Below are positions 23,077 through 32,710 of a stretch of DNA of 32,916 bases, piece by piece. This DNA is from Bacteroidota bacterium (GTDB lineage Bacteria; Bacteroidota; Bacteroidia; Bacteroidales; VadinHA17): NCBI GenBank assembly GCA_030706785.1, contig JAUZNW010000021.1, positions 1 to 32,916 on the forward strand, read 5' to 3'. Every line of letters begins with the position of its first letter. The stretch's first letter is position 1. The notes beneath the pieces were generated by a model. It had not been told where the DNA came from. It was given only the letters and a program-made list of their open reading frames with translations, and did not search any database. Made by a program: the position numbers and the translations under genes.

Positions 23077-24236
23077 ATTCCTAGCTTCTCGATTCTATTC
23101 CTGGCCTCCACCAGCCTTTCTTCATCAGCGCACAAAGATATCCGAATATATCTTTCCCCCTTGCTGCCGAAAATAAATCCAGGCGTCAGGAACACAAAAG
23201 ACCTTGTAAGGATGTCTTCAACAAATGCCGCGCAATCAGAGATTGTCTCCGGAATGCGTCCCCATAAAAAAAGCCCCGTCTGGCTCCTGTCAAATTTGCA
23301 TTTCAGCAGCTCCATTATTGATTCAGCTGCCTTTCTCCGTTTGGAGTAGGTTTCGTTGATTTCAGCATACCATGATGGTGGATTGCCGAGCGCCTCAGCA
23401 GCAGCCATCTGAAGAGGCTGAAACATTCCCGAATCCATATTGCTTTTTACCTTCAGTATATTTTTTATGTATTCTTCATTCCCGGCTGCCATTCCCACTC
23501 TCCATCCTGCCATGTTGTGCGACTTACTGAGGGAGTTAAGCTCAATAGCAATGTCAAATGCATCGTCAACCGAAAGCAGGCTGAGGTGATCCCGGTTAAG
23601 TATGAAACTGTAAGGATTATCGTTGCAAAGCAGAATACCGTGCCTCAGGACAAATTCCACAAGCATTGCAAAAATAGTTGAACTGGCCTTAGCACCGGTA
23701 GGCATATTAGGGTAATTGATCCACATCAGTTTAGTCCGTGAGAGATCCGTTTTTTCAAGTGCTTCGATATCAGGAAGCCAGCCGTTTCTTTCATCGAGTT
23801 CATAGTACCTGACCTTGCCTCCGATCAGGTGGGTAACGGATGAGTAGGTGGGATATCCTGGATTCGGTATCAGCACTTCGTCACCCGGGTTGACAAATGC
23901 CATGCTTATGTGCATGATACCCTCCTTGCTCCCCATAAGGGGAAGGATCTGTGATTCTGGGTCGAGTTTCACATTAAAGTATTTAAGATACCATTCAGAA
24001 AATGCCTTGCGAAGCAGGGGATGACCGTTGTAGCTCTGGTATCCATGGACGTCAGGTTTGGCAGCTTCTTCCGCTAACTTTCTGATTGTGTTCGATGAAG
24101 GAGGTCTATCCGGACTTCCTATCCCGAGGTTTATGACATCCGCACCTGCTTTGCGCATATTATCGATCTGGCGCAACTTCTGCGAGAAATAGTACTCCTG
24201 TACTATGGCAGTACGATCGGCTGGTTTAACTTTCAT
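23067..24236 (-). CDS. Class I/II PLP-dependent aminotransferase (aromatic/aspartate-type, within pheA-tyrA operon)
   Basis: ORF 23067..24302; preferred start MKVKPADRTAIVQEYYFSQ at 24236 preceded by AGGAGATAAGCTTT. Motifs INLGIGSPDRPP, INYPNMPTGA, SLSKSHNMAGWRVGMAAG. Confidence 0.9.
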   Translation of the reverse strand: MKVKPADRTAIVQEYYFSQKLRQIDNMRKAGADVINLGIGSPDRPPSSNTIRKLAEEAAKPDVHGYQSYNGHPLLRKAFSEWYLKYFNVKLDPESQILPLMGSKEGIMHISMAFVNPGDEVLIPNPGYPTYSSVTHLIGGKVRYYELDERNGWLPDIEALEKTDLSRTKLMWINYPNMPTGAKASSTIFAMLVEFVLRHGILLCNDNPYSFILNRDHLSLLSVDDAFDIAIELNSLSKSHNMAGWRVGMAAGNEEYIKNILKVKSNMDSGMFQPLQMAAAEALGNPPSWYAEINETYSKRRKAAESIMELLKCKFDRSQTGLFLWGRIPETISDCAAFVEDILTRSFVFLTPGFIFGSKGERYIRISLCADEERLVEARNRIEKLGIGY

Positions 24237-25056
24237 AAAGCTTATCTCCTTTATTATATATACCAAGGACTTCCATATTGCTGGTAATTTTCTCCAGAAC
24301 ATCTATAATATGCTCAATGTCCGCACCTTCCGGAGGCTCAAGGTCGAGGTAAAACATGTATTCCCAGTTTCCGTTCAGCCTGGGAACTGATTGTATTTTT
24401 GAAAGATTGATGTTCATTTCAGCAAGCCTCACAAGTACAGCTGCAAGTGATCCTGGTTTATGTCCGGTGGCGAAACAGACTGAAATCTTATTGCCATCCC
24501 TGTTCCCTTTTTCCGCACTTCCAATAACCAGAAACCTTGTATAGTTTTTCGGATAGGTCTCTATACCCGAAGCGAGTATTTCGAGTCCGTATAGCTCTGC
24601 TGCCACGGAAGAAGCAATGGTAGCGATTTTCTTAAGCTTATGTTCGGATATGAGCTTAGCACTTCCTGCGGTATCGTCCGCTTCTACAAGGGTAATATGC
24701 GGGTATTGGTTAAGGAAATTCATACACTGCGATAGTGCTATGGGATGCGACCTGATCTGTTTTATCTCATGGATCGTCTGTCCCGGAAGGGCCATAAGGT
24801 TCTGTCTTATCCTGAGGTTATGTTCCCCAAGTATTTTCAACCCTGATTCCCTGATAAGGCTGTAATTATAAAGGATACTTCCGGACCTCGCATTCTCTAT
24901 AGCCATCATTGCAAGGTCAGCTTTCCCGTCAGTGACAGCCTTTAAAGTCATGTCAAATGTAGAGCAGGGAAGAATATCAATTTCGTCGTAACAGAAAAAC
25001 TGTCTTACTGCCACTTCGTGGAAGCTACCTTGCTCACCCTGAATTGCTATTTTCAT
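24226..25056 (-). CDS. pheA: Prephenate dehydratase with C-terminal ACT domain
   Basis: 276 aa; MKIAIQGEQGSFHEVAVRQFF, ALSQCMNFLNQYP, TIASSVAAELYGLEILASGIETYPKNYTRFLVIG; ACT region HKPGSLAAVLVRLAEMNINLSKIQSVPRL. Confidence 0.95.
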   Translation of the reverse strand: MKIAIQGEQGSFHEVAVRQFFCYDEIDILPCSTFDMTLKAVTDGKADLAMMAIENARSGSILYNYSLIRESGLKILGEHNLRIRQNLMALPGQTIHEIKQIRSHPIALSQCMNFLNQYPHITLVEADDTAGSAKLISEHKLKKIATIASSVAAELYGLEILASGIETYPKNYTRFLVIGSAEKGNRDGNKISVCFATGHKPGSLAAVLVRLAEMNINLSKIQSVPRLNGNWEYMFYLDLEPPEGADIEHIIDVLEKITSNMEVLGIYNKGDKLYES

Positions 25057-25437: not shown

Positions 25438-26070
25438 TCAGGCCTCTCCCGGGGGGTTGGGAGCGGAAAGTTTATGCCTCGATTCAAGAACCTCCTCAAT
25501 TTCAGTAAGTGTTGTATTTTTTGCCTTCAGCAGGATAAGTAAGTGGTAAAGCAGGTCAGCAGCCTCATTCTTAAATAGTTCGGTATTATCGTCTTTTGAT
25601 TCGATGACCAGCTCCACTGCCTCTTCACCGATCTTCTGTGCGACCTTGTTTATTCCCTGCCTGAAAAGCTTGTTTGTGTAGGAGTTCTTCTCATTATCAT
25701 CGATCCTGTGCCTGATGATCTGTTCCAGCTCATAGATAAAACCCTTGGAGGTATCCTTTCCAAAACAGGATTTTGTTCCGATATGGCAGACAGGTCCAAC
25801 GGGACTGACCTTTACAAGCAGCGAATCATTGTCACAATCAGCTGTTATTTCCTTAACAATCAGAAAATTGCCAGACGTTTCCCCTTTTGTCCACAACCTG
25901 TTTCTGCTGCGGCTGTAGAATGTGACCTTGCCTTTGTTTTCTGTCATATCCAGAGCCTCCTGGTTCATGTATCCGAGCATTAGAACCTGGAGGGTATTAT
26001 TATCCTGAATTACAGCCGGAACCAGTCCGCCGCCTTTACTAAAATCAATATTTTCCATATATTCATACAC
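25438..26070 (-). CDS. hisIE: Bifunctional phosphoribosyl-AMP cyclohydrolase / phosphoribosyl-ATP diphosphatase
   Basis: 210 aa; GLVPAVIQDNNTLQVLMLGYMNQEAL, GKVTFYSRSRNRLWTKGETSGN, DCDNDSLLVKVSPVGPVCHIG, then HisE domain KVAQKIGEEAVELVIESKD...EAADLLYHLLILL. Confidence 0.96.
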   Translation of the reverse strand: MYEYMENIDFSKGGGLVPAVIQDNNTLQVLMLGYMNQEALDMTENKGKVTFYSRSRNRLWTKGETSGNFLIVKEITADCDNDSLLVKVSPVGPVCHIGTKSCFGKDTSKGFIYELEQIIRHRIDDNEKNSYTNKLFRQGINKVAQKIGEEAVELVIESKDDNTELFKNEAADLLYHLLILLKAKNTTLTEIEEVLESRHKLSAPNPPGEA

Positions 26071-26115
26071 CGCTAATTCCTAAAACTTCGGTCCACAGAG
26101 TTCACTGAGCTAAAA

Positions 26116-26871
26116 TTAAATCCTTACATTAATACCTCTTGCCAACAGATACGCTTTCAGTTCAGGTATGGCAATTTCCCCGTAGTGGAAGATACTTGCT
26201 GCCAGGGCTGCACTGCAGTTAGTCTTTGAAAAAACTTCCCTGAAGTGTTCCGGATTGCCGGCCCCGCCTGAAGCAATAACCGGAATGTTCAGGCTGCGTA
26301 CCACATCCCTGGTAATCTCAATTGAAAATCCCGATTTTGTCCCGTCGGTATTCATTGAAGTTAGCAGTATTTCTCCTGCCCCGAATGATTCAGCTTTCAG
26401 TGCCCAGTCCAGTGCCTTTGACTTGGTTGGAGTCCGGCCGCCTTCGATGAATACTGTCCATTCGTTACTCACAAAAGCAGTATCAATCGCCACAACAACA
26501 CACTGACGTCCGAATTGTTTTGCTATCCGGGTTATGAGGGCTGGATTTCTGAAAGCCGAGGTATTGACGGTAATTTTATCAGCTCCCGCCCTGATAAGGA
26601 CCTCGGCGTCTTCAATCGTTTCGATACCGCCGCCGACCGTGAACGGGATATATATTTCAGCAGCTATCCTGCTGACAAGTTCCGCCAGAGCCTTCCTTTT
26701 TTCTATGGTTGCTGTGATATCGAGAAACACAAGTTCGTCTGCCCGCTGTTCGACGTATCTTTTAGCGAGCTCAACGGGATCTCCGGCATCGCGGAGATCA
26801 AGGAAATTGACACCTTTGACGGTCCTGCCGTCCCTGATATCAAGGCATGGTATGATCCTTTTCTTTAACAT
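26116..26871 (-). CDS. hisF: Imidazole glycerol phosphate synthase subunit HisF
   Basis: 251 aa; MLKKRIIPCLDIRDGRTVKGVNF, PFTVGGGI, LLTSMNTDGTKSGF, VIASGGAGNPEHF. Confidence 0.97.
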   Translation of the reverse strand: MLKKRIIPCLDIRDGRTVKGVNFLDLRDAGDPVELAKRYVEQRADELVFLDITATIEKRKALAELVSRIAAEIYIPFTVGGGIETIEDAEVLIRAGADKITVNTSAFRNPALITRIAKQFGRQCVVVAIDTAFVSNEWTVFIEGGRTPTKSKALDWALKAESFGAGEILLTSMNTDGTKSGFSIEITRDVVRSLNIPVIASGGAGNPEHFREVFSKTNCSAALAASIFHYGEIAIPELKAYLLARGINVRI

Positions 26872-27578
26872 AACCGGCTAATATCCTTTAATTCAAGTTT
26901 CCCCTCATACAAGGCTTTTCCAATAATCGCTCCCTCACAGCCGATCTCAGCGAGCTTTTTTATCTGTCCGACAGTTGCTATACCGCCACTCGCGATTAAA
27001 TTTACATTATCGATTTCGAGAATATCCCTGTACAGTCCGATCGCCGGTCCATTCATTGTACCGTCCCTTTCAATGTCGGTGCATGCCACAAATCTGATCC
27101 CTTTTGACGAATAATCTCTGATGAATTCAAGAACATCGGAATCTGATCTTTTCAGCCATCCTTCGGTCACGATCTTTCTGTTTTTGCAGTCAGCCCCAAG
27201 TATGATTTTCTCAGGACCCCATTCAGACAGCCAGGAAAGAAACAGATCAGGATCCATAACCGCTATGCTTCCGACAGTTACGCTGGATGTTCCACTGTCA
27301 AATACTCCTTTTATATCATTCACTGTCCGAAGGCCTCCGCTGAAGTCAATTTGCAGTTTTGTACTTCCGGAAATAGCTTTTAGGATTTTATGATTTACGA
27401 TGTGTCCTGCCCGTGCGCCATCTAGATCTACCAGGTGCACATGCCTGATACCTGCATCCTCGATATTCCTTGCAAGCTCAAGGGGATCTTCGCTGTATAT
27501 CTTTTTTGTCGAAAAATCCCCACGGGTGAGGCGTACGCACTTACCATCCTGGACATCCATTGCAACTATAATTCTCAC
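26865..27578 (-). CDS. hisA: 1-(5-phosphoribosyl)-5-[(5-phosphoribosylamino)methylideneamino]imidazole-4-carboxamide isomerase
   Basis: 237 aa; MRIIVAMDVQDGKCVRLTRGDF, HLVDLDGA, FSGGLRT, CTDIERDGTMNGPA, IASGGI. Confidence 0.96.
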   Translation of the reverse strand: MRIIVAMDVQDGKCVRLTRGDFSTKKIYSEDPLELARNIEDAGIRHVHLVDLDGARAGHIVNHKILKAISGSTKLQIDFSGGLRTVNDIKGVFDSGTSSVTVGSIAVMDPDLFLSWLSEWGPEKIILGADCKNRKIVTEGWLKRSDSDVLEFIRDYSSKGIRFVACTDIERDGTMNGPAIGLYRDILEIDNVNLIASGGIATVGQIKKLAEIGCEGAIIGKALYEGKLELKDISRLC

Positions 27579-28153
27579 AGTTTGAGGAAGTTTTTAAGGA
27601 TTTTTACTCCGGTCTCAGCTGACTTCTCCGGATGAAACTGGACTGCATAATAGTTGTCCCTGTGCATAGCTGCGCTAAACGGCAGCACATAATCGCATAT
27701 AGCTGATGTATAGTCAGTTATTTCGGCATAAAAGCTGTGAATATAATAAACGTCCTCGTTAGCGCTTACTCCCTTGAAAAGGTCTCCTTTCAGGGCTGAA
27801 AAATTATTCCATCCCACGTGCGGGACCTTATCAAACGGCGGAAATTTCTTGACTGCAGCATCAAAAATTCCCAGGCATCTTGTATAGCCTTCATCCGACA
27901 TGCTGCACATAAGCTGTAATCCGAGACATATTCCCAGGACCGGCTGTTTCAGGGATATGAGAACTGTATCAAGCTTTTTTTCAGTAAGGTATTTCATGGC
28001 TGACCTGGCTTCACCAACTCCCGGAATTATTACCTTTTCAGCAGCCTGTATCTCCCCGGCATCATCCGTAACTGCACTTGAGATTCCAAGCCGGTCCAGG
28101 GCATTCCTTACCGATTGAATATTACCTGCATTATATTTCAGTATCGCGATCAT
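27575..28153 (-). CDS. hisH: Imidazole glycerol phosphate synthase subunit HisH (glutamine amidotransferase)
   Basis: 192 aa; MIAILKYNAGNIQSVRNALDRLG, VIIPGVGEARSAM, PVLGICLGLQLM, AVQFHPEKSAETG. Confidence 0.97.
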   Translation of the reverse strand: MIAILKYNAGNIQSVRNALDRLGISSAVTDDAGEIQAAEKVIIPGVGEARSAMKYLTEKKLDTVLISLKQPVLGICLGLQLMCSMSDEGYTRCLGIFDAAVKKFPPFDKVPHVGWNNFSALKGDLFKGVSANEDVYYIHSFYAEITDYTSAICDYVLPFSAAMHRDNYYAVQFHPEKSAETGVKILKNFLKL

Positions 28154-29238
28154 AGACTTCCCTTTGTTGAGGGAACAATGTAATTGCCTGTTTTCTTTAT
28201 TGCCATGCCAAACGCTCTGGCGAAAGCCTTAAATACAGCTTCTGCCTTATGGTGATCGTTCTCTCCTTCTGCTTTAACGTTAAGATTGCATTCCGCATTG
28301 TCACTGAACGATTTAAAAAAATGAAATATCATCTCTGAAGGCATGTCACCAATCATTTCACGCTTGAATTTCACGTTCCAGACAAGCCATGGGCGGCCGC
28401 TGAAATCAATGGCAACCTGTGCCAGCGAATCATCCATTGGGATCAGGAATCCATACCTGCTTATGCCTTTCTTGCTTCCCAGGGCTTTCCGGACTGCTTC
28501 CCCCAGAGTGATGGCAACATCCTCAATTAAATGATGGCTATCAACTCTCAGATCACCAGTTGCCGCAATATTGAGATCAATTTCTGCGTGTCTGGCTATC
28601 TGGTCCAGCATGTGATCAAAAAATCCGATCCCGGTGGTAATTGAACTTCTTCCCGGACCATCAAGGTTAAGATCAACATTTACAGAAGTTTCTTTTGTCT
28701 TCCGCTCAATGGAAGCAGTTCTTGGAAGTGAGACCAGGTATTTTACTATGTCGTCCCAGCAGGTTGTGTTGAATATTGCATCCGGATGTTTCTGATTGCT
28801 TATAAAGATTGCCCTGCAACCAAGATTTTTGGCCAGCCCAAGATCAGAAATCCTGTCACCTATTACAAATGAGGAGTCAAGGTCAATGCCCTGTGAAAGA
28901 TATTTCGTCAGCATCGCGATTCCCGGCTTTCTTGATGGGGCATTTTCTTCAGGAAATGTTCTGTCGATGAATATCTCTGCAAATTCAACACACTCACCTT
29001 TGAGTATCTGAAGCATTTTTTTGTGTGAAGGCCAGAAGGTTTCTTCAGGAAAGGATTTTGTCCCAAGACCATCCTGGTTTGTAACCATCACGAGCTCAAA
29101 ATCAGTCTCCCTGGCAATCCTGGAAAGAGCGGTAATTACTCCGGGTAGAAAACTGAAATTTTCAATTGTATCCACCTGTTCATTGGCAGGCTCAATGATA
29201 ATAGTGCCATCCCTGTCAATAAATAAAACCTTCTTCAT
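28150..29238 (-). CDS. hisB: Bifunctional histidinol-phosphatase / imidazoleglycerol-phosphate dehydratase
   Basis: 362 aa; HAD motif VLFIDRDGTIIIEP; IGPD motifs GIGFFDHMLDQIARHAEIDL, DSHHLIEDVAITLGEA. Confidence 0.97.
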   Translation of the reverse strand: MKKVLFIDRDGTIIIEPANEQVDTIENFSFLPGVITALSRIARETDFELVMVTNQDGLGTKSFPEETFWPSHKKMLQILKGECVEFAEIFIDRTFPEENAPSRKPGIAMLTKYLSQGIDLDSSFVIGDRISDLGLAKNLGCRAIFISNQKHPDAIFNTTCWDDIVKYLVSLPRTASIERKTKETSVNVDLNLDGPGRSSITTGIGFFDHMLDQIARHAEIDLNIAATGDLRVDSHHLIEDVAITLGEAVRKALGSKKGISRYGFLIPMDDSLAQVAIDFSGRPWLVWNVKFKREMIGDMPSEMIFHFFKSFSDNAECNLNVKAEGENDHHKAEAVFKAFARAFGMAIKKTGNYIVPSTKGSL

Positions 29239-30266
29239 AGATTTATTCTGCTTAAAGCCTTCAGCAATCTGTTATTTTCACTCTTTTTTCCTACTGTAAT
29301 CCGCAGGCAGCCAGGAACTATCCTGCTCCGGTTCCTGACAACTATCTTACTATTTATTAGCCTTGCATAGATCTCATCGGCATTCCTGGTCTTCACAAGG
29401 ATAAAATTCGCATCCGAAGGGAAGACTTTTTCAATAATATTCAATTTCTTAAGATCGATGATGAGCCTTTCCCTTTCAGTTTTGATCTTATGGATCCTTT
29501 TTTTGAACAGATTGATCCTGCCAAGGCTTTTCAGGACAGCCTTCTGGTTCAGTGAGCTTATGTTATACGGAGGCTTCATCTTATTCAGATAATTGATGAT
29601 TGCCCGGTCAGCGATGGCCATCCCGATCCTGGCCGCAGCCAGCCCAAAAGCCTTGCTGAATGTCTGCATGACTATAAGGTTATTGTATTTGGCGGTCAGT
29701 AACCTGAAGGATTCCTGTTCGGAGAAATCTATATAAGCTTCATCGACCAGGACAATACCGCTGAAATTTGAGATAATGTATTCAACATCTGATCTCTTCA
29801 TCGAGTTTCCCGTAGGATTATTAGGTGAGCAGATCAGGATCAGCCTAAGGTCCGGAGCCATCAGCAATTCTTTTATGCTGCCCGGGTCAATGGAGAAATC
29901 ATCAGTTAAGGGAACTTTGATCAGCCTTACAGTATTGATTGCAGCTGAAACTTCGAACATTCCGTAGCTGGGATAAAATGTCAGTGCACAATCTGATCCG
30001 GGATTGCAAAAGGTTCTGAAGCAAAGATCAATTATCTCATCGCTGCCATTGCCAAGGAAAATATTCTCTTCGCTGATTCCCTTAATTTTACTGACTGCAA
30101 TCTTGAGTTCCTTCTGGTACGGATCGGGGTATCTGTTGAGTTCACCATATGGATTTTCATTCGCATCAAGGAATATTCCTTTCCTGCCCTGGAATTCATC
30201 GCGTGCGCACGAATATGGGACGAGTTTCTTTACGCTTTCCCTTACAATTTTATCAATATCAGCCAT
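29235..30266 (-). CDS. hisC: Histidinol-phosphate aminotransferase
   Basis: 343 aa; DANENPYGELNRYPDPYQ, FLGNGSDEIIDL, CSPNNPTGN, VDEAYIDFSE, TFSKAFGLAAARIGM. Confidence 0.96.
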   Translation of the reverse strand: MADIDKIVRESVKKLVPYSCARDEFQGRKGIFLDANENPYGELNRYPDPYQKELKIAVSKIKGISEENIFLGNGSDEIIDLCFRTFCNPGSDCALTFYPSYGMFEVSAAINTVRLIKVPLTDDFSIDPGSIKELLMAPDLRLILICSPNNPTGNSMKRSDVEYIISNFSGIVLVDEAYIDFSEQESFRLLTAKYNNLIVMQTFSKAFGLAAARIGMAIADRAIINYLNKMKPPYNISSLNQKAVLKSLGRINLFKKRIHKIKTERERLIIDLKKLNIIEKVFPSDANFILVKTRNADEIYARLINSKIVVRNRSRIVPGCLRITVGKKSENNRLLKALSRINL

Positions 30267-31551
30267 TACCCAAAGATTTTAACCGGATTGAGACAGCATT
30301 TCTGTGACCTGATAAAGATTCGGCAGCAGCCATCTGTTCTATAACCGGACCGAGGTTCTTCAATCCTTCAGTCGATATCTCCTGAAATGTTATTTTCTTA
30401 ACAAAACTGTCAACCGATACCCCGCTATAGCTTCTGGCGAATCCATTTGTGGGCAGGGTATGGTTTGTTCCTGAGGCATAGTCACCGGCGCTTTCGCAGC
30501 TATAATTGCCGATAAATACGGATCCTGCATTTATAACCCTGTCAGCCAGCTGCTTCGGATCAGAGACGTTAATAATAAGGTGTTCCGGAGCATACCGGTT
30601 ACTGAAATCCATGCATTCATCAATTGAATTCATAAGGATCAGCAGGCTGTTTTCCAGTGAATTCGCAGCGATCTCCCTTCTGGGAAGGCTGTTCAGCTGA
30701 TTCTCGCATTCAAGCTGTACGTTTTTAATAACCTCAACGTCATCAGTAACCAGGATTACCTGGCTGTCAGGACCATGCTCAGCCTGCGCGAGAAGGTCAG
30801 AAGCTACATAGGATGCATTAGCTTTCCCGTCAGCCATTATCAGTACTTCACTCGGACCTGCAGGCATATCGATCGCTATCCCATCAGCCAGGACCATCTG
30901 CTTTGCAAGCGTAACATACTGATTGCCCGGGCCGAAGATCTTGTTCACTTTCGGTACTGTTTCAGTCCCGTAAGCCATTGCCGCGATTGCCTGGGCACCG
31001 CCGATCTTGAAAATATCCGTAACACCTGTCAGCCATGCCGTGTAGAGGATAGTCGGATCAATGTTTCCCTTGCTATTGGGGGGTGAGCAGAGGACAATCT
31101 CCCTGCAGTCCGCGATCTTTGCCGGTATAGCCAGCATCAGAACGGTAGAGAAGAGGGGAGAAGTGCCGCCAGGGATATAGAGTCCTACTTTTTCTATTGG
31201 AACATTCTTTCTCCAGCACATGACCCCCTTCATGGTTTCGACAGGCTTTTCATCGGCAAGCTGGGAACTATGGAATTTTTCGATGTTAGCTTTTGAAACG
31301 TTAATTGCATTTTTCAGATCTTCCGGAATATTTTTTACAGCACGAATAACCTCTGCCTGCGAGATCTTAAGGTTTTTAAGCACAGCGCCATCATATTTCT
31401 CTTCCAGGTCACGGACTGCAAAATCACCGTTATTCCTGACATTCTGCAGGATGGCGTTAACTGTGCCCGTGAGATCTGAACTGTCGGCCAGAGGCCGTTT
31501 ACAAAGCTGATCCCATTCCTCTCTCCGGGGATAAATAAATGTCTTCATCAC
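30259..31551 (-). CDS. hisD: Histidinol dehydrogenase
   Basis: 430 aa; GLYIPGGTSPLFSTVLMLAIPA, KIFGPGNQYVTLAKQ, DMPAGPSEVLIMAD, AEHGPDSQ, SAGDYASGTNHTLPTNGFAR. Confidence 0.97.
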   Translation of the reverse strand: MMKTFIYPRREEWDQLCKRPLADSSDLTGTVNAILQNVRNNGDFAVRDLEEKYDGAVLKNLKISQAEVIRAVKNIPEDLKNAINVSKANIEKFHSSQLADEKPVETMKGVMCWRKNVPIEKVGLYIPGGTSPLFSTVLMLAIPAKIADCREIVLCSPPNSKGNIDPTILYTAWLTGVTDIFKIGGAQAIAAMAYGTETVPKVNKIFGPGNQYVTLAKQMVLADGIAIDMPAGPSEVLIMADGKANASYVASDLLAQAEHGPDSQVILVTDDVEVIKNVQLECENQLNSLPRREIAANSLENSLLILMNSIDECMDFSNRYAPEHLIINVSDPKQLADRVINAGSVFIGNYSCESAGDYASGTNHTLPTNGFARSYSGVSVDSFVKKITFQEISTEGLKNLGPVIEQMAAAESLSGHRNAVSIRLKSLGNG

Positions 31552-32405
31552 AGGATCATTTTTTCGATAGGGATAACAAGTATGCCTTCAGCACCTGCAC
31601 TTTTGAGCTGATCGATCCGATCCCAGAATTCATCCTCCTTGACTACCGAGTGCAGGCTGCACCACCCTTTTTCGACAAGTGGAAGGAGGGTAGGGCTTTT
31701 CATCCCGGGCAAAATTTTACAGATCCGTGGAACAGCCTTTTCCGGAGCATTAAGCAATATGTATTTATTCTCCTTCGCGTTCTTAACTGCCTTAATCCGG
31801 AAGATAAGCTTGTCAAGCAGCTCCTGTTTCCCTGTTTCAAGGTTTTTGTTAACTATGATAACAGCCTGGCTTTTAAGAATAGTGACTACTTCGCGCAAAC
31901 CATTGGTCATAAGGGTACTTCCGGAGCTTACGATATCACATACTGCGTCTGCAAGACCTATTCCCGGTGCAATTTCAACGCTTCCGCTGATCTCCTCAAT
32001 TTCAGCGGTTATATTTTTCTGCGCGAGGTAGTCACCAAGAAGCCTGGGGTAGCTGGTGGCAATCCTCTTATTCATAAAGTGTTCAGGTCCCGTGAAGACC
32101 TCTTTCAGGGGAATGGCAAGGCTTAAGCGGCAATGTGCGAATCCGAGATGCTCAAGGATAACGACATCCTTATCTTTTTCATACACCATGTTCTCTCCGA
32201 GTATGCCTATATCGGCTACCTGCTGCTCGACATACTGGGGTATATCATCGTCACGGAGATAAAGAACCTCGATAGGAAAATTCTCAGCTCTGCTTTTGAG
32301 TGCATTTGATCCGTTAGGGATCTTTATATTGCACTCCTCCAGCAGCTTCCTGGAGTTATCACTTAGCCTGCCTGTTTTCTGAATTGCAATTTTCAGTTCG
32401 CTCAT
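31548..32405 (-). CDS. hisG: ATP phosphoribosyltransferase (long form with C-terminal regulatory domain)
   Basis: 285 aa; LKIAIQKTGRLSDNSRKLLEECNI, LRDDDIPQYVEQQVADIGILGENM, RIATSYPRLL, GLADAVCDIVSSGSTLMTNGLREV; C-terminal HisG_C-like region. Confidence 0.96.
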   Translation of the reverse strand: MSELKIAIQKTGRLSDNSRKLLEECNIKIPNGSNALKSRAENFPIEVLYLRDDDIPQYVEQQVADIGILGENMVYEKDKDVVILEHLGFAHCRLSLAIPLKEVFTGPEHFMNKRIATSYPRLLGDYLAQKNITAEIEEISGSVEIAPGIGLADAVCDIVSSGSTLMTNGLREVVTILKSQAVIIVNKNLETGKQELLDKLIFRIKAVKNAKENKYILLNAPEKAVPRICKILPGMKSPTLLPLVEKGWCSLHSVVKEDEFWDRIDQLKSAGAEGILVIPIEKMIL

Positions 32406-32436
32406 TCTGTTTCATTTTTTGCTGAGCAAACCTTCC

Positions 32437-32474
32437 GGAAACGAAAAACCCGTCAGATCTGCTCAGACGGGTTT
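32437..32474 (-). terminator. Intrinsic terminator/attenuator upstream of hisG
   Basis: Minus strand AAACCCGTC-TGAGCAGATCT-GACGGGTTT followed by TTCGTTT; arms 32446-32454 and 32466-32474. Confidence 0.88.
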
Positions 32475-32508
32475 ATGATATCTTTATTAATAAATGGTAA
32501 TATCACCT

Positions 32509-32562
32509 TCATCTCGCCTGAGTGCATAATAGATGATGATGATGTAAGTTAACTAAGGTCAT
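32509..32562 (-). CDS. His leader peptide (MTLVNLHHHHLLCTQAR)
   Basis: 17-codon ORF with four consecutive CAT His codons upstream of the attenuator and hisG. Confidence 0.9.
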   Translation of the reverse strand: MTLVNLHHHHLLCTQAR

Positions 32563-32580
32563 TTCCTGTTTTTGTAAAGA

Positions 32581-32588
32581 CAAAGATA
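32581..32588 (-). promoter_or_regulatory. Bacteroidetes-type -7 box candidate (TATCTTTG) for the his operon
   Basis: Exact TAnnTTTG match about 18 nt upstream of the His leader ATG; the -33 element is not clear. Confidence 0.55.
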
Positions 32589-32710
32589 GGAATAAATTGA
32601 TAAATGAAACAATTATTCTCTGAAATCGTAGAATAATTAATATTGCACTCATTTTTCATTCCACATTCGCATCCCTGAATACACTCATTGATCACATGTA
32701 CTCACCTCCC

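Follow-up and report, generated by a model that had tools for sequence, protein, structure and literature searches.

A bacterial DNA stretch of 32,916 nucleotides (hereafter the window) from a member of the Bacteroidota carries, directly upstream of a his operon, an element that we read, with a probability of roughly 0.9, as a ribosome-mediated transcription attenuator of that operon; this figure excludes the role of strand 5, a further strand located 3' of the terminator. Leader, antiterminator and terminator are conserved among relatives, with compensatory changes in the last two. The element belongs to an RNA family that has no Rfam entry and occurs in both Flavobacteriales and Bacteroidales MAGs. 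Most of what is known of his-operon attenuation comes from Proteobacteria.

Locus and operon

The element occupies positions 32612-32405 of the minus strand, in the order promoter, leader ORF, CTCAGGCG, stop codon, terminator, strand 5 and hisG start. The features are listed below, with the basis of the assignment in brackets where one applies.

32581..32612 (-): sigma-A type promoter of Bacteroidota, with TTG at 32612-32610, a 21-nt spacer and TATCTTTG at 32588-32581 (sequence)
32509..32562 (-): leader peptide ORF MTLVNLHHHHLLCTQAR, 17 aa, containing HHHH (sequence, and homologous leaders in about 100 loci)
32511-32509 (-): leader stop codon (sequence)
32533..32544 (-): strand 1, four CAT codons, the regulatory His codons, with an alternative pairing to the post-stop segment (sequence, folding)
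32515..32522 (-): strand 2, CTCAGGCG, 5' strand of the antiterminator, inside the last leader codons (covariation, geometry)
32499..32506 (-): 5' strand of the inner antiterminator helix, GTGATATT, within the segment that pairs alternatively with the His codons
32475..32482 (-): 3' strand of the inner antiterminator helix, GATATCAT (81% of cells paired in relatives)
32460..32469 (-): strand 3, CGTCTGAGCA, common to the antiterminator, the terminator and the post-terminator pairing
32444..32474 (-): intrinsic terminator (strands 3:4), AAACCCGTC...GACGGGTTT with a T5 U-tract (pairing 97.5%, fold)
32422..32430 (-): strand 5, TTTGCTCAG, 3' of the terminator, 16 nt ahead of the hisG start codon
31548..32405 (-): hisG, first structural gene, ATG at 32405
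25438..31551 (-): hisD, hisC, hisNB, hisH, hisA, hisF and hisIE

Transcription is expected to start near 32576. For comparison, the sigma-A box of Flavobacterium psychrophilum is given in passages of its 2021 transcriptome study as TAnnTTTG at -12 to -5 (PMC9723704). The his operon is complete, with eight genes in the order G D C NB H A F IE. The tetra-CAT string CATCATCATCAT occurs only twice in the whole 3.65-Mb genome, and the leader region folds 3.6 standard deviations better than its shuffles (z = -3.6).

A sequence-only reading of the locus had proposed a His leader peptide and attenuator upstream of a complete his operon, and its positions and pair counts, read on the minus strand, proved correct to the base. 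The box TATCTTTG, the HHHH ORF with its four CAT codons, and the terminator with T-tract ahead of hisG are all found at the locus, and the eight his genes were identified downstream. The proposed antiterminator, CTCAGGCG (32522-32515) with CGTCTGAG (32469-32462), does form eight pairs, one of them G-U; CGTCTGAG lies, as had been claimed, in the 5' arm and loop of the terminator, and CTCAGGCG begins 10 nt past the last His codon. The post-terminator strand, the pairing of the His codons with the post-stop segment and the inner antiterminator helix go beyond that reading.

A second candidate leader-peptide attenuator was observed in the same window, at 25205-25041 on the minus strand, before a prephenate dehydratase gene (24226-25056). 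It comprises an ORF, MNIVYTYSSFYFYFFYCRKN, rich in Phe and Tyr, followed by GGGTCC...GGACCC and a T-tract; a repeat resembling strand 5 was not seen there by eye.

Distribution of the RNA family

GTDB representative genomes with HisG were scanned, which yielded 67 loci. Fifty-one leaders were aligned (alignment A1), and a covariance model (R1) was built from 37 of them. Strand 2 and the terminator are common to all 51 leaders and strand 5 is present in most. We also examined 393 independently drawn genomes of the phylum, of which 326 carry hisG; related Bacteroidota loci of both sets show the same anatomy (about 50 in the first and about 55 in the independent one). Almost all near loci have a leader of the form M...LHHHHFHTCSQAR, in most cases 130-200 nt ahead of hisG, and the run of His codons and the terminator, whose conservation the sequence-only reading had made the touchstone of its proposal, are kept in almost all hisG upstream regions of near relatives.

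In the window's genome R1 matched this locus alone, at 101 bits against 20 for the next match, and the search revealed no second copy of the element. With a single exception, which scored 43 bits, all matches of at least 42 bits lay upstream of hisG. The weaker matches inspected (below 42 bits), together with that one, were considered as possible relatives at other operons and rejected, being ordinary intrinsic terminators away from hisG. A search of hisG upstream regions across the phylum had been suggested beforehand; in the independent draw the element was present in all 51 hisG-bearing genomes of two code families (f6 and f7).

Twenty hisG upstream regions (L148-L167) were inspected from genomes without an R1 match, and many of these contain His-rich leader ORFs of unrelated sequence. 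Some are followed by a terminator, e.g. L148 (MIYTTTHHHHSPDE), L149, L152 and L162; L153 and L159 have no obvious T-tract terminator and may be subject to translational control or to another mechanism. Two Marivirga loci (L059 and L060) possess long leaders with dispersed His codons (...HAAHPFHHSSF and ...HAFHAVHVFHHSSL) and no matching terminator motif. Given this variety of His-rich leaders before hisG, control by His leaders seems to be widespread in the phylum and to use several RNA designs.

Conservation and covariation of the alternative helices

The pairings 2:3, 3:4 and 3:5 are conserved and co-vary. In A1 the antiterminator (2:3) has 95.8% of cells paired. In the independent loci the value is 94.3%, and the key pair appears as A-U, G-C or G-U, with 10 double-change cells (G-C versus A-U) and a covariation score reached in 0 of 500 shuffles. 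The antiterminator pairing proposed from the sequence alone is kept at 94-96% in relatives, with A-U/G-C exchanges. The terminator has 97.5% of cells paired and double changes at four pairs (0 of 500 shuffles), and its G+C-rich stem and U-tract are kept in all rows of the first alignment. The inner helix (32506-32499 with 32482-32475) shows double changes in four of its seven pairs at the 81% pairing given above, and is weak as a whole. For the hairpin between the His codons and the post-stop segment (1:2), 89.5% of cells are paired and covariation does not exceed that of shuffles, a comparison confounded by codon constraint.

Leader peptide and switch geometry

All analysed loci except one have two to six His codons in the leader ORF. 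These codons are CAT rather than CAC at a ratio of 390:27, compared with 16:17 in the window's his operon, a preference consistent with the pairing of the His codons to the post-stop segment or with other constraints. Within strand 2, Ala is encoded by GCG in 71 of 72 cases, whereas the window's his operon uses GCG for 23 of its 181 Ala codons; this bias points to selection at the RNA level. Strand 2, or a close version of it, is also kept in L067, L137 and L056, where the frame stops inside the strand. The RNA strand accounts for the conserved QAR at the end of the leader better than the peptide itself does.

In 80 of 84 loci the distance between the leader stop and the start of strand 2 is 11, 14 or 17 nt, and strand 2 is in the same reading frame in 83 of the 84; at this spacing a ribosome finishing the peptide would sit on strand 2. 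We assumed that the ribosome covers 15 nt on the upstream side of the P site and 13 nt on the downstream side; together with the spacing, this footprint leaves strand 2 covered at termination of the peptide and free when the ribosome is stalled on His codons. Transcripts of 82 loci, ended just after strand 3, were then folded with the footprint masked. The mean probability of the 2:3 pairing, P(2:3), was 0.83-0.87 with the ribosome stalled on His, 0.40 without a ribosome and 0.00 at the stop, where zero follows from the mask, so that the informative results are the reach of the mask to strand 2 and the rise on stalling. With the ribosome stalled, P(2:3) exceeded one half in 91-94% of the loci. 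For the window the values were 0.96-0.99 stalled on His, 0.00 at the stop and 0.95 without a ribosome. As the antiterminator is predicted here even without a ribosome, super-attenuation in the absence of translation is doubtful for the window. Equilibrium folding through the terminator was also tried for the window and discarded; it returned the terminator in every ribosome state and is uninformative about the switch.

The strand beyond the terminator

A strand complementary to GTCTGAGNNN is conserved 3' of the terminator, 12-34 nt before hisG and within 12-19 nt in 50 of 68 loci. In the window it is complementary to 32466-32458 over nine contiguous pairs, one of them G-U. In A1 90.2% of cells are paired, with 28 double-change cells (0 of 500 shuffles), whereas slides of the strand gave 20-41%; the independent loci, several rows of which are out of alignment or no longer carry the strand, gave 80.6% with 22 double-change cells (0 of 500 shuffles). 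In 69 of 103 loci strand 5 gives a run of at least nine pairs; among shuffles the share is 2.7%.

The loop pair is either C-G or U-A, with zero exceptions in 74 rows; these rows were chosen to have at least seven of the nine pairs formed, which leans slightly to pairing and forces no single pair. On the HisG tree this pair changes six times between U-A and C-G, and each change involves both sides. Supported independent pairs of loci agree in five cases and disagree in none (sign-test p = 0.06, limited by the n = 5 contrasts). A pseudoknot confined to the loop was considered for strand 5 and rejected, as the covariation reaches terminator-stem position 112, where C faces G wherever the strand is kept; the pairing probably extends into the terminator stem.

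Strand 5 is absent in about one quarter of the loci, and its presence changes 14 times on the HisG tree (an upper estimate, some rows being misaligned), and it therefore appears to be readily gained or lost. The terminator hairpin is retained in loci that lack it. Among the Bacteroidales MAG loci, L012-L015, L019, L021, L022, L026 and L051 are without strand 5, and in these the terminator ends only 16-21 nt before hisG.

Strand 5 is transcribed only once the polymerase has passed the terminator; it therefore cannot determine the termination of its own transcript and would act on read-through RNA only; its likeliest roles would be control of hisG initiation or of stability. In nested folding of the full-length RNA the accessibility of the hisG start site barely differed between states (0.55-0.58), in a model that cannot represent pseudoknots, and an effect of strand 5 on translation is thus unsupported by the nested model. 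We know of no textbook attenuator with a co-varying post-terminator strand.

Proposed mechanism and alternative explanations

We infer ribosome stalling, a response of read-through to it, and a role for strand 5. When charged tRNA-His is scarce, the ribosome would stall on the CAT run and leave strand 2 (CTCAGGCG) free to pair with strand 3 (CGTCTGAG), aided by the inner TGATAT:ATATCA helix; this pairing would block the terminator and allow RNA polymerase to read into hisG. When histidine is plentiful, the ribosome would reach the leader stop with its footprint over strand 2, strands 3 and 4 would pair, and transcription would end. If the leader were not translated, the His codons could pair with the post-stop segment, compete with the inner helix and weaken the antiterminator. 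Strand 5 would offer strand 3 a conserved alternative pairing in read-through RNA only and may tune hisG translation or mRNA fate, which would extend control beyond the terminator.

A two-stage attenuator, in which strand 3 has a co-evolving third partner present only in read-through RNA beside the hisG start, so that leader ribosomes keep controlling hisG translation or mRNA stability past the terminator, is a tentative proposal that we hold to be somewhat less probable than its negation. If true, it would provide a fast post-transcriptional shut-off on the return of histidine.

The leader might instead be mainly translational, with ribosome-driven refolding that exposes or hides the hisG start through strand 5 and a hairpin that is a weak terminator. 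The closeness of strand 5 to hisG, which starts 12-19 nt beyond the end of the strand in 50 of 68 loci, and its covariation with strand 3 speak for this, as do L153 and L159, where a His-rich ORF is kept but no T-tract terminator is obvious, and there is precedent in the translational attenuators and the LEU element of Actinobacteria (PMC1262725). We consider it unlikely, however, given the canonical G+C-rich stem and U-tract of all rows of the first alignment, also where strand 5 is missing, and the nearly constant modelled accessibility of the hisG start site. That the hairpin is simply the terminator of the upstream gene, accompanied by an incidental His-rich ORF, with hisG regulated by neither, would fit the finding that terminator-like R1 matches elsewhere reach about 43 bits, a hairpin with U-tract alone not being diagnostic. 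A promoter box nevertheless separates the leader from the upstream gene; the leader and strands 2 and 3 are conserved as a set, strong matches lie upstream of hisG, and the element occurs in 51 of 51 hisG genomes of two families, which makes this explanation highly improbable.

A further alternative concerns ancestry rather than mechanism, namely that the element shares its ancestry with the enterobacterial His_leader (RF00514), as a true but divergent homologue, and did not arise independently. At gathering thresholds Rfam gave no match for the window or for 14 relatives. His_leader nevertheless matched the window better than any other Rfam family did (27.6 bits, E 0.0069, gathering 49) and was found below threshold in L039 (37.4 bits), L003 (33.0 bits), L008 (28.4 bits) and L041 (26.6 bits). 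Both RNAs have CAUCAU runs with a UCAGGCGA-like string close behind. All 15 loci tested nonetheless fall below the gathering score of 49, the alignment of the window to RF00514 has many broken pairs in both upstream stems (NC line), i.e. in the first two hairpins, and the His leaders of neighbouring Bacteroidota families have unrelated RNA, which suggests repeated origin. Homology is accordingly quite improbable in our estimation, and the earlier description of the element as the same in principle as the enterobacterial leader and unrelated in sequence is a fair one, the similarity being sub-threshold. Transcription attenuation by a translating ribosome is the interpretation that our analysis supports, in agreement with the sequence-only reading.

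Classical attenuation requires close timing between ribosome and RNA polymerase, and the family makes this timing testable in Bacteroidota. In a phylum that mostly dispenses with initiation led by Shine-Dalgarno sequences, histidine synthesis looks to be widely under the control of leader peptides, and strand 5 provides a specific test case for control after termination. Shine-Dalgarno sequences are described as absent in F. psychrophilum in the transcriptome study of that species (PMC9723704).

Comparison with known systems

The attenuator is not wholly new, since the 2021 Flavobacterium study flagged structured 5' elements of hisG. Its main-text passages report elements 5' of hisG and pheA that are conserved in Flavobacteriaceae and have no Rfam hit, and suggest leader-peptide attenuation for amino-acid operons (PMC9723704). 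The hisG element described there is, like ours, directly upstream of hisG, found in Flavobacteriaceae and without an Rfam hit, and it probably belongs to the same RNA family. Those passages give no strand-level mechanism, whereas the 2:3 and 3:5 pairings were tested here by covariation; the family as delimited here also reaches beyond Flavobacteriaceae to Bacteroidales and other groups. Bacteroidetes his attenuators may have been predicted earlier still, in a 2010 survey by Lopatovskaya and colleagues (cited in PMC4833913). In the portions consulted, a 2021 study of Bacteroidota his genes mentions attenuation for enterobacteria only (PMC8305728), and the main text of a B. thetaiotaomicron transcriptome covers leader-like ORFs in general, without hisG (PMC7366714).

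The relevant sections of a 2022 study of histidine regulation in Gram-positive bacteria place his attenuators in Proteobacteria and some Firmicutes, with Bacteroidetes unmentioned (PMC9413887). The Firmicutes candidates share with the present family three to five His codons in the leader peptide, a terminator and antiterminator, and the lack of an RF00514 hit; they belong to another phylum, and those sections describe no post-terminator strand for them. Translational attenuators and a pseudoknot leader, the LEU element, are known in Actinobacteria (PMC1262725). The LEU element likewise combines regulatory codons in a leader peptide with a conserved pairing, alternative or pseudoknot, near the first structural gene, but it responds to leucine and involves the Shine-Dalgarno box of leuA, whereas a terminator is present here.

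The enterobacterial his leader folds as a multi-hairpin series, A-F. That attenuator (hisL, RF00514) and the element described here have in common a leader with His codons upstream of hisG, mutually exclusive antiterminator and terminator, and His codons that pair with the following segment. In the Bacteroidota element, in contrast, the end of the leader ORF pairs directly with the 5' arm of the terminator, a switch of the trp type, and strand 5 after the terminator is an addition that the enterobacterial switch is not known to have. Judged by its sequence, the element of the window is not a member of RF00514 and represents a distinct RNA family that resembles the enterobacterial one in principle.
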